Origin: Cyanobacterium aponinum PCC 10605
GTDB taxonomy: Bacteria; Cyanobacteriota; Cyanobacteriia; Cyanobacteriales; Cyanobacteriaceae
DNA length: 64,000 nt
Reading direction: 5' to 3'
Assembly (NCBI RefSeq): GCF_000317675.1
Contig: NC_019776.1
Coordinates: 3,534,001 to 3,598,000 of the forward strand
A program made the translations under genes and the position numbers. Of this stretch, positions 15,458 to 59,079 are shown in pieces. The notes under the pieces were generated by a model. That model did no database searches. It saw nothing but the letters and a program-made list of their open reading frames with translations, and was not told where the DNA came from. Numbering within the stretch: position 1 is the stretch's first letter; each line of letters opens with the position of its first letter.

Positions 15458-15631
15458 TATATAATCTCAGTTCGGTTTAAGAATATCGGATAGATTTCAG
15501 GTTGTAGGTGTTGGAGTATTAGGGGGATGAGGGGAGAGGGAGAGGTGGAGGCTTAGGGTGATAGGGGTTGAATATATTCAACCCTGACGGGAAATTTCTT
15601 TTTTATCTTAATTCCGAACTCAGGTTAATAT
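15458..15631. repeat. Composite intergenic repeat bounded by inverted modules
   Basis: The left end carries CTCAGTTCGG followed by TTTAAGAATATCGGATA (about 15466-15492). The right end carries the inverted form CCGAACTCAGGTTAA (15614-15628). Between them are a decayed heptamer array (15495-15515) and purine-rich G/A sequence. The same ends and contents occur at 30017-30280. Confidence 0.6.
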
Positions 15632-29034: not shown

Positions 29035-29110
29035 ATTGAGGTTTTGGAGTATTGGGGAGATAGAGGAGGCGATCGCCTTTATTTTTCTGTTAAAATTTGA
29101 AAATGAAACA

Positions 29111-29136
29111 GCCCTGCCCTAAATAGGGGGGAGGGC
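29111..29136. terminator. Strong hairpin after cupS
   Basis: Nested arms GCCCT/AGGGC and CCCTA/TAGGG (29111-29136) make a GC-rich hairpin about 77 bp beyond the cupS stop, followed by AAAAGTGTTT and not a clean T-run. It could end or protect the 3' end of the operon transcript, or be a dispersed repeat. Confidence 0.35.
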
Positions 29137-29254
29137 AAAAGTGTTTAATTAACTGACGTTATTTATATTTCTTAATTCTCCTCGTTTTTCCCACCTAGTA
29201 ATCAATACAACTAAAATAGAATTGCTATATAGCTAATAGTTAATATTCGTTGGA

Positions 29255-29941
29255 ATGAATCAGAATCAATTGGTAAAAAATTTAGATGAAATCAGAAATA
29301 CTATTCCTACCTCTGTGAGATTGGTGGCGGTAACAAAGAAAGTTGATGTTGAGGTCATGAAATGGGTTTATGAGCAAGGAATCAAAGATTTCGGAGAAAA
29401 TAAGTTACAAGAGGCGATTAATAAACAGGCTCAATTACAGGATTTAAATGATATTACTTGGCATTTTATTGGGCATTTGCAGAGTAATAAGGCAAAAAAA
29501 GCGGTAGAGTCTTTTGCTTGGATTCATTCGGTGGATAGTCTGAAAATTGCTCAACGTCTTGATTTTTATGCACAACAGGCATTGAACGAAAAGGTCATTA
29601 TAAAAAAACCTCAAGTGTGCTTACAAGTTAAGCCGTTACCTGATGATAATAAATATGGTTGGACCACAGAACAACTGTGGAATGATTTACCTTTACTGCA
29701 AGAGTTACATTATCTTAGTGTTAGAGGTTTGATGGTGATTTTACCTTTAGGTTTGTCTCAAGAGGAAACTCTTTCTACTTTTAAATCGTTGAAAGTTTTA
29801 CAGGAAAAAATTAAAGATAAGGGTTATTTTTCAGATAATTTTAATCAACTATCTATGGGAATGTCAGAAGACTATTTATATGCGATCGAGGCTGGAGCTA
29901 CTATGATTCGCCTAGGTAGAGTTATATTTAATGATAGTTAA
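29255..29941 (+). CDS. YggS/PLPBP-family pyridoxal-phosphate homeostasis protein
   Basis: 228 residues, single-domain TIM-barrel PLP-binding protein. The lysine of VAVTKK (Lys28) should hold PLP; FGENKLQEA, WHFIGHLQSNKAKK, IHSVDSLKIAQRL, LSMGMSEDYLYAIEAGATMIRLGR are the family motifs. It buffers PLP and affects amino-acid and keto-acid balance. In many cyanobacteria it precedes the septum gene sepF, but here a diguanylate cyclase follows after a 513-bp repeat region. Confidence 0.92.
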   Translation: MNQNQLVKNLDEIRNTIPTSVRLVAVTKKVDVEVMKWVYEQGIKDFGENKLQEAINKQAQLQDLNDITWHFIGHLQSNKAKKAVESFAWIHSVDSLKIAQRLDFYAQQALNEKVIIKKPQVCLQVKPLPDDNKYGWTTEQLWNDLPLLQELHYLSVRGLMVILPLGLSQEETLSTFKSLKVLQEKIKDKGYFSDNFNQLSMGMSEDYLYAIEAGATMIRLGRVIFNDS

Positions 29942-30454
29942 TATTTTCTTTTTTCTATTTTAGTTGATATTATTTATTGGTAAATAGGATGATAAATATT
30001 TTTCAGTTCTGTTTCTAAATTAACCTGAGTTCGGGATAAATTTTCATCTATGAATGATGGAGAAAAAGGCAAAGGGCAAGGAGAAAATTTAAAAGGACAA
30101 TGGGCGAAGGTAAATAGTGAATAGTTGATAATTAAGGATTAGGAATAAAAAACCCCGAACACTCATTATTTATTACTCATTACTCGTTACTTATTACTTT
30201 CTCTCAACACCTGCAACCTGCAACCTGAAACCTGACACCTACCCTTATCCAATATTCTTAAACCGAACTGAGGTTAAATTAAGGATAAATTGGGTAAATA
30301 AGCTGAGTTTTGGAGCAATTTTCTTCGCTATGGTAGCGTTTTGGCAAAAGGAAATTAAATTTTCTTATCCTTGTACTATGATTGCAAAAAATTTCCTAGA
30401 ATATGGAAGAATTACTTTTAATATAATACTATCTGTATTTTTTAATAGGGAAAG
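29942..30454. other. Intergenic region dominated by a composite repeat
   Basis: 513 bp without a gene. A composite repeat occupies 30017-30280; the remaining right part is AT-rich, including a stretch near 30405-30445 that should contain the promoter of the diguanylate cyclase gene. Confidence 0.6.
30017..30280. repeat. Composite repeat with inverted ends
   Basis: The left end AATTAACCTGAGTTCGG (about 30018-30034) is the inverse of the right end CCGAACTGAGGTTAAATT (30263-30280), with one mismatch. The inside contains AT-rich filler shared with other gaps and a heptamer array (30208-30240). This is the clearest example of the composite family and looks like a small non-autonomous element. Confidence 0.65.
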
Positions 30455-31969
30455 TTGAAAAATCAAAGCCAGAAAGGTCGTCAGTTAGTTTTTCTGAATG
30501 GAGGAATTGCGATCGCATATATAATTGCGATTCAAATTAGCCATGCTTTTACGACTCTACCCGGAGAAGTGGCATCGGTTTGGTTTCCTTCTGCTATAAC
30601 TCTACCGATGGTTTATTACTATGGGACAAAAGTTTTTTCAGGTATAATCATTGGTTCTATTGTTGGTCTAATTCCTGCTTTATCTAGTTTAGATCCTCCT
30701 TTATCTTTGATAAATAGTCTTCTTCTCAACACTATCTGTGTAATTGCTAATTGTTTACAACCTTGGTTCGCTAGATATTTGTTGAATAAATTTTCTCGAC
30801 ATCAAGAGATTTTTACTCATTTATCTTCAGTTTTAGTTTTTATCGTTGCTTCTTTTGTTGCTCCTTTAATTTCTGCCATGTTAGGAGTGACAGGTTTATT
30901 GATAGTAAATGCTTTAACCATTGGAGAATATCCTCTTGCTTTTATTACTTGGTGGTTAGCATCGGCTTTAGCTCACATTTTATTTTCTCCGCCCATGATA
31001 ATTTATCGAGAAAAAGAAGTTTTACATCAAAAAGCAAGTTATGGAGAAATAATTATCAACTTAAGTATTTTATGTGTTATATGTATAATTATTTTTCAAT
31101 TTGCCTATCCTCTCGAATATTTACTATTACCGATTTTGATTTGGGGAGTATTTCGTTTAAATCGTTGCAATTCTAGTTTATTAGTGAGTTTTGTTGCATT
31201 TGTGGCTATTACCGCCACAGGCAAGGGTTATGGAATATTTGTCAAAAGTTCTGTGAATGATTCTTTAATGTTGTTACAGTCTTTTACTGCCATGCTTTCT
31301 TTAACGACATTAATTTTATCGGCGGTATTAAGTGAGAGACAAATTGCACAGCAATCTTTAAAAGAAACTCTGGAAAACTTAGAAATAAAGGTATTTGAGC
31401 GTACCAGAGAATTAACTCAAGCACAACTTAACCTCAAACACGCTAACCATACTTTAAAAAAAATTGCTAATACCGATAGTCTAACTCAAGTGGCTAATCG
31501 TCGGTACTTCGATCGCCGTTTACGGGAAGAATGGCATAATATGTTAGTAATAGCACACCCTTTATCTTTGCTATTGATTGATATTGATTGTTTTAAACAA
31601 TATAACGATACTTATGGACATCCCCAAGGAGATGAATGTTTAATCCAAGTAGCACAAACTTTTAAATCTGTTACCCGTCATAATTCTGACTGTATAGCTA
31701 GATATGGTGGGGAAGAATTTGCCATTATTTTACCCAATACAAATCAAAAAGAAGCCCAATTTATAGCAGAGAAAATTCTTAAAGAAATACGCAAGTTACA
31801 AATTGACCATAAAACCTCCACTGTATTAAAAATTGTTACCTTAAGCATTGGCATTACCACATCTACTCCTCAAGCTAATGACTCTTTAGAAGATTTTATT
31901 CAAAAAGCTGATAAGGCTTTATATCAAGCAAAACAGCAAGGGCGCGATCGCTTCGTAATTTTAGTGTAA
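30455..31969 (+). CDS. Membrane diguanylate cyclase, MASE1-GGDEF
   Basis: 504 residues: eight or so N-terminal helices (about 10-285) of the MASE1 sensor type (GEVASVWFPSAITLPMVYYYG), a linker coiled coil, and a C-terminal GGDEF domain (about 335-500) with ANTDSLTQVANRRYFD and the active-site ARYGGEEFAIILP. The GGEEF form is catalytic, making cyclic di-GMP. The usual product-inhibition RxxD motif is not kept (HNSD at that place), so feedback control may be weak. It starts at TTG with a weak upstream AGGG; no close ATG fits. Confidence 0.88.
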   Translation: MKNQSQKGRQLVFLNGGIAIAYIIAIQISHAFTTLPGEVASVWFPSAITLPMVYYYGTKVFSGIIIGSIVGLIPALSSLDPPLSLINSLLLNTICVIANCLQPWFARYLLNKFSRHQEIFTHLSSVLVFIVASFVAPLISAMLGVTGLLIVNALTIGEYPLAFITWWLASALAHILFSPPMIIYREKEVLHQKASYGEIIINLSILCVICIIIFQFAYPLEYLLLPILIWGVFRLNRCNSSLLVSFVAFVAITATGKGYGIFVKSSVNDSLMLLQSFTAMLSLTTLILSAVLSERQIAQQSLKETLENLEIKVFERTRELTQAQLNLKHANHTLKKIANTDSLTQVANRRYFDRRLREEWHNMLVIAHPLSLLLIDIDCFKQYNDTYGHPQGDECLIQVAQTFKSVTRHNSDCIARYGGEEFAIILPNTNQKEAQFIAEKILKEIRKLQIDHKTSTVLKIVTLSIGITTSTPQANDSLEDFIQKADKALYQAKQQGRDRFVILV

Positions 31970-34803: not shown

Positions 34804-35278
34804 ATTCAGCTCTGGCTTAACCCTTTGAATATTAATATTTATTCAGTTAGTTATAATGTTAATCTATATGCAATTACCGACTATATGAATTTAGACATTA
34901 GAGATAATTGTCAGATTGTCCATTATACTATACTTTGGTTAAGGTAGGGGCAAGGATAATTTATAAACTGACGTTACGCACTTATTCATGCGTTAAGTTT
35001 TGGTAGGTTTCAGGTTTCAGGTAACAGTTAGCAGGTTTAATTTTCATAAGATTACATTATTTTATCCAAGAATTTAAAACAAGAAAATCAATTAATATAT
35101 TTTTTTTATCAATTCTTTAACCTAATACCTAACACCCGATACCTGACACATCAAAACAACAACTAATTATCTTTTTGCGTAACATCAGTTACAAACTTAA
35201 AACTTACATTAGAAACTGATGAGATAAGCTAAAAGCTCATTAATAACCTTGCTGATGACGGTTTAGAAATAGAGAATA
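34804..35278. other. Intergenic region upstream of rpoC1 with MITE-like element
   Basis: 475 bp without a gene. The left 160 bp is AT-rich and should hold the rpoC1 promoter on the minus strand. The element at 34966-35190 fills most of the rest. Confidence 0.55.
34966..35190. repeat. MITE-like element with 15-bp inverted ends
   Basis: AACTGACGTTACGCA (34966-34980) and TGCGTAACATCAGTT (35176-35190) are inverted copies with one mismatch, 225 bp apart. The element contains heptamer arrays near both ends (35005-35022 and 35120-35148) and a small hairpin ACGCA/TGCGT next to the left end. No clear target duplication. No coding capacity. Confidence 0.6.
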
Positions 35279-46387: not shown

Positions 46388-46419
46388 CCTGAAACCTGAA
46401 ACCTGAAACCTGACACCTA
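46388..46419. repeat. Heptanucleotide array (CCTGAAA)
   Basis: Four tandem units, the last CCTGACA, followed by CTACCCTTAT as at 30239-30248. Confidence 0.8.
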
Positions 46420-57399: not shown

Positions 57400-57932
57400 G
57401 TTCTAGTACTTTGATTTTTTTTAATTATCTTAAGTGAAAAAGGTCTGTGATTGCTTTATAGCCTGAAGTTGGTTAGATGCGATCGCAGCCTTTAATTATT
57501 TTAACCTCAGTTCGGTTTAAGAATATCGGATAAGGTTAGGTTTCAGGTTTCAGGTTTCAGGTTGCAGGTGTTAGGGGATGGGAGGATGGGGGGATGAGGT
57601 GATGAGGGGAAAGGGGGAAACAAGTAATAAATAATAAATAAGTAGTAAGTATTCGTGGTTTTTCATTCTTAATTCTTAACTATTTAACGTCAGTTCAGGT
57701 TAAAGCAATTTTATTGTTATTTATAAGAAGCGATAAGGTTTTCCGACTACGAAAAAATAACGCTTTCAGCTTATCCAAAACTCAGGTTATTTTAATCTCA
57801 GCTCGATGTAAAGCCCTATTTATTCAATAACTTTTTAGTTATATTTTGTTACAAAGATTGTTTTTTAATCTTAAAAAAAGTTAAATATATAAGGATTATA
57901 AATAATCAATTGTAAGTGATAAATAATTTAAC
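57400..57932. other. Repeat-rich intergenic region after petD
   Basis: 533 bp without a gene. Contents: a HIP1 site, the CTCAGTTCGGTTTAAGAATA module (57506-57525), a heptamer array (57537-57575), G-rich filler, AT-rich filler, and a diverged module copy near 57794-57810. The last 90 bp is AT-rich and should hold the promoter of the methyltransferase gene. Confidence 0.6.
57537..57575. repeat. Heptanucleotide array (AGGTTTC type)
   Basis: About five tandem units, ending in AGGTTGC and AGGTGTT variants, directly after the CTCAGTTCGG module. Confidence 0.85.
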
Positions 57933-58856: not shown

Positions 58857-59079
58857 CAAACCCCTGTTGGGCTTAAAAAATCGGCTCAGGATGGTTTCAC
58901 CTTATTTCCATATAAAGTGTTGGAGAATGAAGCTATGATTTTTGGTTGAGATTGGGAATAGGCAATAGGCAAGGGGCAAAGGTAAATAGTTAAGAATTAA
59001 GAATTAAACACTCCAAACTGATTTCCCTTCTCACTCCCTCCCCTCATCTTCTGAACTCCGAACTCAGATAATATTGGGA

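Follow-up and report, generated by a model that had tools for sequence, protein, structure and literature searches.

How does an array of seven-base repeats come to lie between the inverted ends of a small element? The question arises at one intergenic locus of a 64,000-nucleotide stretch of DNA (the window; G000:C1:3534001-3598000) from a two-contig genome of 4,176,973 bases (G000). The origin of many heptamer arrays in cyanobacterial intergenic DNA is an old puzzle. Such arrays, the STRR among them, consist of seven-base direct repeats between genes, and heptamers of other kinds are often interspersed. An earlier note on this DNA had proposed that the locus carries a member of a small non-autonomous element family that picks up or generates such arrays. 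The explanation that we consider best, with a probability of about 0.8, is a MITE of the IS982 type, mobilized in trans, whose heptamer-cassette interior has been remixed by recombination.

The element and its neighbors

The interval first assigned to the element, 30017-30280, is made up of 254 bp plus AAATT on both sides, a perfect 5-bp duplication. The element itself is real: the inverted ends, the duplication, the heptamers and copies throughout the genome are all seen. Its parts, and the basis on which each was placed, are as follows.

30022 to 30275, plus strand: MITE of the IS982 type, A-type (GGGATAAATTTTCATC), 254 bp; from reading the sequence
30017 to 30021, no strand: left target-site duplication, AAATT; from the sequence and the duplication statistics of the family
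30276 to 30280, no strand: right target-site duplication, AAATT; on the same two grounds
30022 to 30034, plus strand: left terminal inverted repeat AACCTGAGTTCGG, exact, followed by GATAA; 18 of 20 bases are those of the IS982 left end in genome G003
30263 to 30275, minus strand: right terminal inverted repeat AACCTCAGTTCGG, one mismatch to AACCTGAGTTCGG, followed by TTTAAG; 17 of 20 bases are those of the G003 IS982 right end
30066 to 30082 (approximate), plus strand: module A, a stretch of GGCAAAG-type heptamers; from sequence and module order
30110 to 30134 (approximate), plus strand: modules B and C, GTGAATA and TTGATAATTA; from sequence and module order
30161 to 30199 (approximate), plus strand: module D, an array of TTACTCA-type heptamers; from sequence and module order
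30206 to 30240, plus strand: module F, an array of AACCTGC, AACCTGA and GACACCT heptamers; it contains AAACCTGACACCT, the stretch that joins hybrid elements

No open reading frame of at least 60 aa lies within 30022-30275. One neighbor (29255-29941) is a gene with an alanine-racemase-like N-terminal domain (PF01168), and the other neighbor is a MASE1-GGDEF gene (30455-31969; PF05231, PF00990).

A family of MITEs

Two further copies were found in the window.

15463 to 15626, minus strand: second element, 164 bp; the orthologous site in the nearest genome (G001) is without it
57503 to 57788, minus strand: third element, 286 bp, B-type (GGATAAGCTGAAAGC), target-site duplication ATTTT; it has two ends and was absent from the earlier note

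The former had been claimed at 15458-15631 and was indeed found there, within the slightly narrower bounds given; its left end reads AATCTCAGTTCGG and its right end is exact. Matches of the AACCTGAGTTCGG type with at most two mismatches number eight in the window, whereas 100 shuffles gave 0.66 on average and 4 at most. At 46388-46418 and 58980-59070, heptamer arrays or strings stand beside single degenerate ends (AAACTCAGGTA; CCGAACTCAGATA); these are probably decayed elements.

In the whole of G000, exact AACCTGAGTTCGG occurs 69 times and AACCTSAGTTCGG 242 times, and neither pattern occurs in reversed form. From 80 fetched stretches and the window we assembled 64 two-ended elements of 125-299 bp. 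As the stretches were picked around exact left ends and BLAST hits, these 64 are a sample and not a census. By the sequence adjoining the left end, 41 are of type A (GGGATAAATTTTCA), 16 of type B (GATAAGCTGAAAGC), two of type C (GAGTTAAAC) and five of other types; five of the 16 B-type elements have TTTTGG in the end. For the duplication statistics, copies with common flanks were removed, which left 57 elements. Identical flanks of 4 bp were found in 25 of these, of 5 bp in 16, and of 6 and 7 bp in one each, so that 43 of the 57 have a duplication of at least 4 bp and 14 do not; only 3.3 of 57 are expected if the left flank of one element is compared with the right flank of another. Six identical copies of 207 bp occur at six sites and three of 250 bp at three sites, which indicates that the movement was recent.

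Target duplications of IS982 elements are of variable length, 3-9 bp. The duplications here vary likewise, being 4-7 bp in the 43 elements. The members are shorter than 600 bp, have no transposase gene, are present in many copies and have defined inverted ends, duplications and empty sites in relatives, as MITEs do. We regard it as nearly certain that they form an IS982-type MITE family. The earlier proposal of a small non-autonomous family is thus borne out by shared boundaries, target duplications, empty sites and, in relatives, an IS982 partner with the same ends. The note had named as grounds against it a lack of shared boundaries, or ends found singly with no insertion polymorphism; boundaries are common to the copies and insertion polymorphism is observed. 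Single ends also exist, as is expected for decayed or hybrid copies.

Empty sites and gene order

The joined flanks of every second element with a duplication of at least 4 bp (22 of the 43) were searched in G001. A site was called empty when the match covered at least 30 bases on each side of the junction, differed in length by no more than 5 and was at least 85% identical. Eight of the 22 gave clean empty sites. By query start, five of them are 161 (93% identity), 321 (96%), 1761 (91%), 1921 (98%) and 2081 (87%); at the other three, 641 (90%), 1601 (96%) and 2561 (92%), the flanks are repeated, so that an element-free flank is shown and the orthologous place is not certain. The remaining 14 were without a clean empty site: at 961, 2241, 2401 and 3361 the match crossed the junction with an identity of 74-77%, differing in length by 8 and 33 bases at two of these four, and ten joined flanks gave a partial match or none. 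No element-occupied site was seen in G001 among the 22 flanks, in a search not designed to prove that; 40 of 751 candidates were scored, so that misses are no evidence of occupied sites.

The flanks of the second element in the window meet in G001 with a 4-base overlap (G001:C1:1512797-1513462 and 1513459-1514033), and the junction reads GATATATAATATAG. This element has a left end that appears slightly eroded and a duplication that is imperfect, and the junction is no textbook duplication. Another copy (G000:C1:3011177-3011411) begins 6 bases behind a tRNA-Leu gene (791-871 of locus L084); G001 has the empty form of this site, 98% identical.

Internal palindromes and inverted ends are also what one would see in an immobile structural or RNA element, such as a hairpin or a non-coding RNA. 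The single-strand DNA fold, however, has a z of -0.71, and no Rfam family reached its gathering score in the window or at four related loci. Duplications and empty sites exclude such an element as the main explanation, and we give it practically no weight beside a mobile MITE.

At the element of 30022-30275 itself, the two flanks are found separately in G001, the left one at G001:C1:2310816-2311605 (minus strand) and the right one at 844313 (plus strand), which means that the gene order is broken at this element. The order of G000 and G001 breaks twice within 1.3 kb (29045-29237 and 30023-30354), once at the element. A break in this position fits the idea of repeats serving rearrangement; one case is no proof.

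The transposase partner

A partner for the MITE is found in relatives. In G003, a 970-bp element between two exact ends encodes an IS982-family transposase (NF033520, 266.4 bits with a cut-off of 130; PF13612, 237.6 bits with a cut-off of 27). In G001, which is of the same genus, an open frame of 304 aa is found 11 times, always within a 966-bp element with ends that differ from AACCTGAGTTCGG at 2-3 bases. Over 20 bases, A-type ends share 18 positions on the left and 17 on the right with IS982 of G003, but only 15 of 20 on either side with the intact IS982 of G001, although this is the nearest genome. In G000, IS982 genes are represented by three remnants only, of 34-60 residues. The NF033520 cut-off was not reached in G000 (best score, 14 bits), and in the same search it was passed in one of 14 control genomes. 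With no IS982 gene over the cut-off, the present mobility of the family in G000 is doubtful, and the MITE was probably moved by an enzyme that is no longer encoded intact there.

A scan of named genomes yielded 125 IS982 relatives, of which 80 loci were kept and 36 of those checked for ends. Both ends were within two mismatches of AACCTGAGTTCGG at 26 of the 36, and 12 were exact at both 13-base ends, including loci of Nostocales cyanobacterium HT-58-2 and Anabaena azotica. When a shuffled motif was used as control, two mismatches were reached on the left side at one locus of 36. The ten loci that failed comprise five from other phyla and five cyanobacterial ones (one at a contig edge). In six draft contigs of one genome (G030 C3, C38, C59, C103, C110 and C118), the exact end stands at position 116-128 in each; this looks as if the assembly had broken in a repeated IS.

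The likeness between MITE and IS982 ends after about 18 bp (judged by eye), and neither of the IS982 copies checked, one from G001 and one from G003, has an ACCTG[AC]A heptamer. These two results rule out the interior as a simple deletion derivative of IS982 and leave the use of IS982 ends unaffected. An IS982 remnant with recognizable ends (3 and 2 mismatches) and a mostly deleted gene is present at G000:C1:1060909-1061088 (L141). It is the expected intermediate for a classical MITE, yet its interior is unlike that of the family.

The interior of the element

The interiors consist of GGCAAAG, GTGAATA, TTGATAATTA, TTACTCA, CATCCCC and AACCTGM modules together with short palindromes, and 58 of the 64 MITEs have at least two adjacent ACCTG[AC]A units in the right half. 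The units are tandem, seven bases long and intergenic; we take them to be STRR heptamer arrays of cyanobacteria, which are here the cargo of an element. A scan of GTDB contigs with the core pattern gave no match. The palindrome CCCCCCTC-NN-GAGGGGGG has 24 matches among element copies, with the loop GA in 16, TC in 4 and AA in 4. Since GA and TC are mutual reverse complements, the hairpin loop looks as if it were flipping.

The modules have a standard order, which was studied in 81 stretches (199,980 bases), most of them fetched around elements. Inside elements, 173 of 187 pairs within multi-module clusters are in this order. Outside elements the fraction is 0.88 (142 of 161 pairs; the highest value reached in 500 shuffles of the outside clusters is 0.64), where it should be noted that pairs within a cluster are non-independent and that the outside clusters may hold unrecognized elements. 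At several orthologous places without full elements, the strings of G000 and G001 are alike in style and different in content, and the neighboring aligned DNA is 93-97% identical.

How much of this could have arisen in place? A plain IS982 MITE made by internal deletion might have gained its heptamers from replication slippage on the spot, the arrays found elsewhere being due to convergence or to decayed copies. Array length does differ between otherwise near-identical copies, a variation for which ordinary slippage would account. But no IS982-like DNA was seen inside past the terminal 18 bp or so, neither IS982 copy has the heptamers, and the order of the six modules is kept outside elements too. 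We consider the plain deletion account unlikely.

TIR2 elements and hybrids

Two other kinds of ends besides the IS982 type (TIR1), ACTGACGTTACGCA and GGGTCTGCTGAATAAATC, were found. An element of the former kind lies in the window.

34967 to 35189, plus strand: TIR2 element, 223 bp, with the unrelated ends ACTGACGTTACGCA and TGCGTAACATCAGT; not in G001

It has inverted heptamer arms, and its core resembles the cores of TIR1 elements from other genera. In G000, TGACGTTACGCA has 20 exact matches, and both TIR2 ends are present at 11 loci. One intact locus encodes a 124-aa protein of the 23S_rRNA_IVP/four-helix-bundle kind (PF05635, 136.1 bits; TIGR02436, 132.3 bits). At four loci a whole IS982-type MITE is inserted in the IVP gene; one locus has the MITE right end alone, and one, that of the window, is a short derivative. 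The full TIR2 form with a 5-bp duplication is seen at L240, where an IVP gene travels in a transposon-like element.

The other four of the 11 loci (L222, L229, L234 and L236) are hybrids, with a MITE left end and a TIR2 right end. The longest stretch common to the right halves of MITE and TIR2 elements is AAACCTGACACCT, of 13 bases, and by eye it is here that the hybrids switch from MITE to TIR2 sequence. Duplications of 5-6 bp are present at nine of the 11 TIR2 loci, including three of the four hybrids (5 bp). Having duplications of their own, the hybrids moved after forming. The junctions are few, and they may have originated in one or two events.

That hybrids are joined within arrays goes against the account by deletion and slippage in place. 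As these arrays are also found between other ends, recombination inside arrays could remix parts, and on balance we favor the view that the interior is a cassette built of modules, which are remixed with those of other element families by way of the common heptamers. Of the earlier suggestion that the elements pick up or generate arrays, the picking up is favored by an interior that is missing from the two IS982 copies checked, by the elements with other ends and by the hybrids; generation was not demonstrated.

Arrays in other genomes

Forty array loci were read in other genomes, 21 in G006, ten in G012, eight in G008 and one in G011, and their ends were scored by a motif test; each motif, shuffled once, matched none of the 40. 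In G008, the IS982-type right end is present at all eight loci, and a left end was scored at three. In G006, the IS982-type right end is present at five loci, and a third kind of end, TIR3 (CTGCTGAATAAATC), is found on the left at six and on the right at four. The single locus of G011 has both IS982-type ends. The arrays adjoining right-end variants at eight of eight G008 loci and five of 21 G006 loci suggest that the right-hand array is old in the family, which would suit a MITE formed by deletion with its array growing in place.

Exact pattern hits in 40 relatives had first hinted at a double dissociation of ends and arrays: exact ends and arrays, with overlapping hits counted separately, numbered 0 and 69 in G006, 1 and 48 in G008, 0 and 44 in G012, 44 and 0 in G009, and 14 and 0 in G003. 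We dropped this idea because the G008 arrays and several of the G006 arrays adjoin variant ends, and only G012 still speaks for arrays without recognized ends. Eight of its ten loci have none of the tested ends, although two of the eight (L218 and L324) may, by eye, have variant ends that the motif test missed.

The G012 loci are what would be expected if heptamer strings were an independent intergenic repeat class, STRR-like, that transposons have hit, the interior of the MITE being captured target DNA. Some MITE copies do lie within external strings of the same kind (e.g., 3423541 and 3794567), and the orthologous strings without full elements that differ between G000 and G001 agree with such a class as well. 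Yet the interior is missing from the empty sites, and the AACCTGM array adjoins the right end in several genera, so that it is a standing part of the element with no fresh capture at each site. Capture of target DNA therefore has, in our judgment, a rather low probability.

The sharing of parts between elements with different ends extends beyond the heptamers. The module GAAAATTACACCTG is present at 19 of the 40 array loci, eight with TIR1 ends, five with TIR3, none with both and six with neither. Core motif m3 is present at nine of the 40, and TIR3 was scored at none of these nine. The heptamer-free core of the TIR2 element in the window aligns with that of a TIR1 element of G008 with a score of 39.5 (the maximum of 100 shuffles being 13) and with that of a TIR1 element of G006 with 30.0 (shuffle maximum, 14.5). 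The cores of two TIR3-type loci match each other (73) and not the TIR1 and TIR2 cores (9.5-16.5, at or near shuffles); one locus, L216, was taken as TIR3 by eye in this comparison and was not scored TIR3 by the motif test. Most other core pairs scored near shuffles; the comparison leaves out L207 and two C-type elements. From these counts, the arrays and one adjoining module are common to TIR1 and TIR3, and the long core is common to TIR1 and TIR2. TIR3 has one single match in about 200 kb of G000, so a TIR3 family is argued from G006 only. A non-heptamer core occurring with both TIR1 and TIR2 ends, and GAAAATTACACCTG with both TIR1 and TIR3, again run counter to formation of the interior by internal deletion, and they are consistent with the remixing of a modular interior that we prefer.

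Could the arrays be kept by selection? The heptamers might be additional sites to which the transposase or a host factor binds. The first seven bases of the end are the same as the unit AACCTGA, and in elements that differ in their ends the arrays have subterminal positions and are often inverted. An identity of seven bases may be due to chance, however, the two IS982 copies have no heptamers, and arrays shared by elements with unrelated ends are not specific to one transposase. A functional array of this kind seems to us improbable.

Comparison with known systems

Nezha, reportedly described by Zhou in 2008, is said to be a short non-autonomous MITE of cyanobacteria. Cyanobacterial IS982 elements (NF033520; Nostocales HT-58-2, Anabaena azotica FACHB-119) have the same terminal sequence, AACCTGAGTTCGGGATAA / AACCTGAGTTCGGGTTAA, but they encode a transposase, are about 0.95-1.1 kb long and, in the G001 and G003 copies, have no ACCTG[AC]A heptamers.

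According to the available part of its description, MITECca01 of the Cardinium endosymbiont of Oedothorax gibbosus is a small, abundant MITE derived from IS982, with ends like those of its parent IS, and like the present family it sits between genes and inside other mobile elements (PMC9769881). It differs in that the parent, ISCca4, is intact in the same genome, and the same part of the paper mentions no tandem repeats, no interior common to other element families and no hybrids (PMC9769881). BrickBuilt of Porphyromonas gingivalis, as presented in the portion available, has a tandem repeat inside it and ends that resemble those of resident insertion sequences; its duplications vary, and its sites are filled in some strains and empty in others, all of which recall the family described here (PMC4596501). 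In contrast, it has one 23-nt unit and 19 copies, its ends are closest to ISPg1 and ISPg9, and that portion describes neither ordered heptamer types nor a cassette common to differently ended elements (PMC4596501).

The type II MITEs of Anabaena sp. 90 number 147 complete or partial copies of 77-541 bp; they are likewise short and non-autonomous, their ends match no resident IS, and a heptamer cassette is not described in the accessible sections (PMC3542288). For the TAACTGA repeats, which are intergenic heptamer repeats, carriage by a mobile element is merely raised in the excerpted text, whereas the arrays here lie inside elements with ends and duplications (PMC4679880). In the accessible parts of the open-access literature, we found no description of a heptamer cassette common to MITEs with different ends.

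Mechanism and significance

The steps that we propose are the following. An IS982-family transposase would act in trans on the ends of about 18 bp, cutting out or copying the MITE, and insertion would take place in A+T-rich DNA with a short duplication. The recent movement would have occurred before the transposase was lost or via a transient source; in the former case the loss would have followed the last burst. Recombination at short homologies within arrays, by RecA or by slippage, would delete, join and swap interior parts, and the hybrids would move again under whichever ends they now have.

A more far-reaching reading, which we offer tentatively, is that the heptamer cassette is itself the persisting unit, which swaps ends by array recombination and is moved by IS982 and at least two other putative transposases. 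If so, the cassette would outlive the loss of any one transposase, and the MITE families of these cyanobacteria would be exchangeable coats around a single mobile, intergenic cassette that is quickly remodelled. Such a change of coats would explain both how MITEs outlive their parent transposase and why families with different ends are alike inside. As to the old puzzle of the heptamer arrays, some of these can now be assigned to defined mobile elements whose enzyme family is known, and a step in their remodelling can be read from the sequence: recombination inside arrays appears to make a new mobile hybrid.
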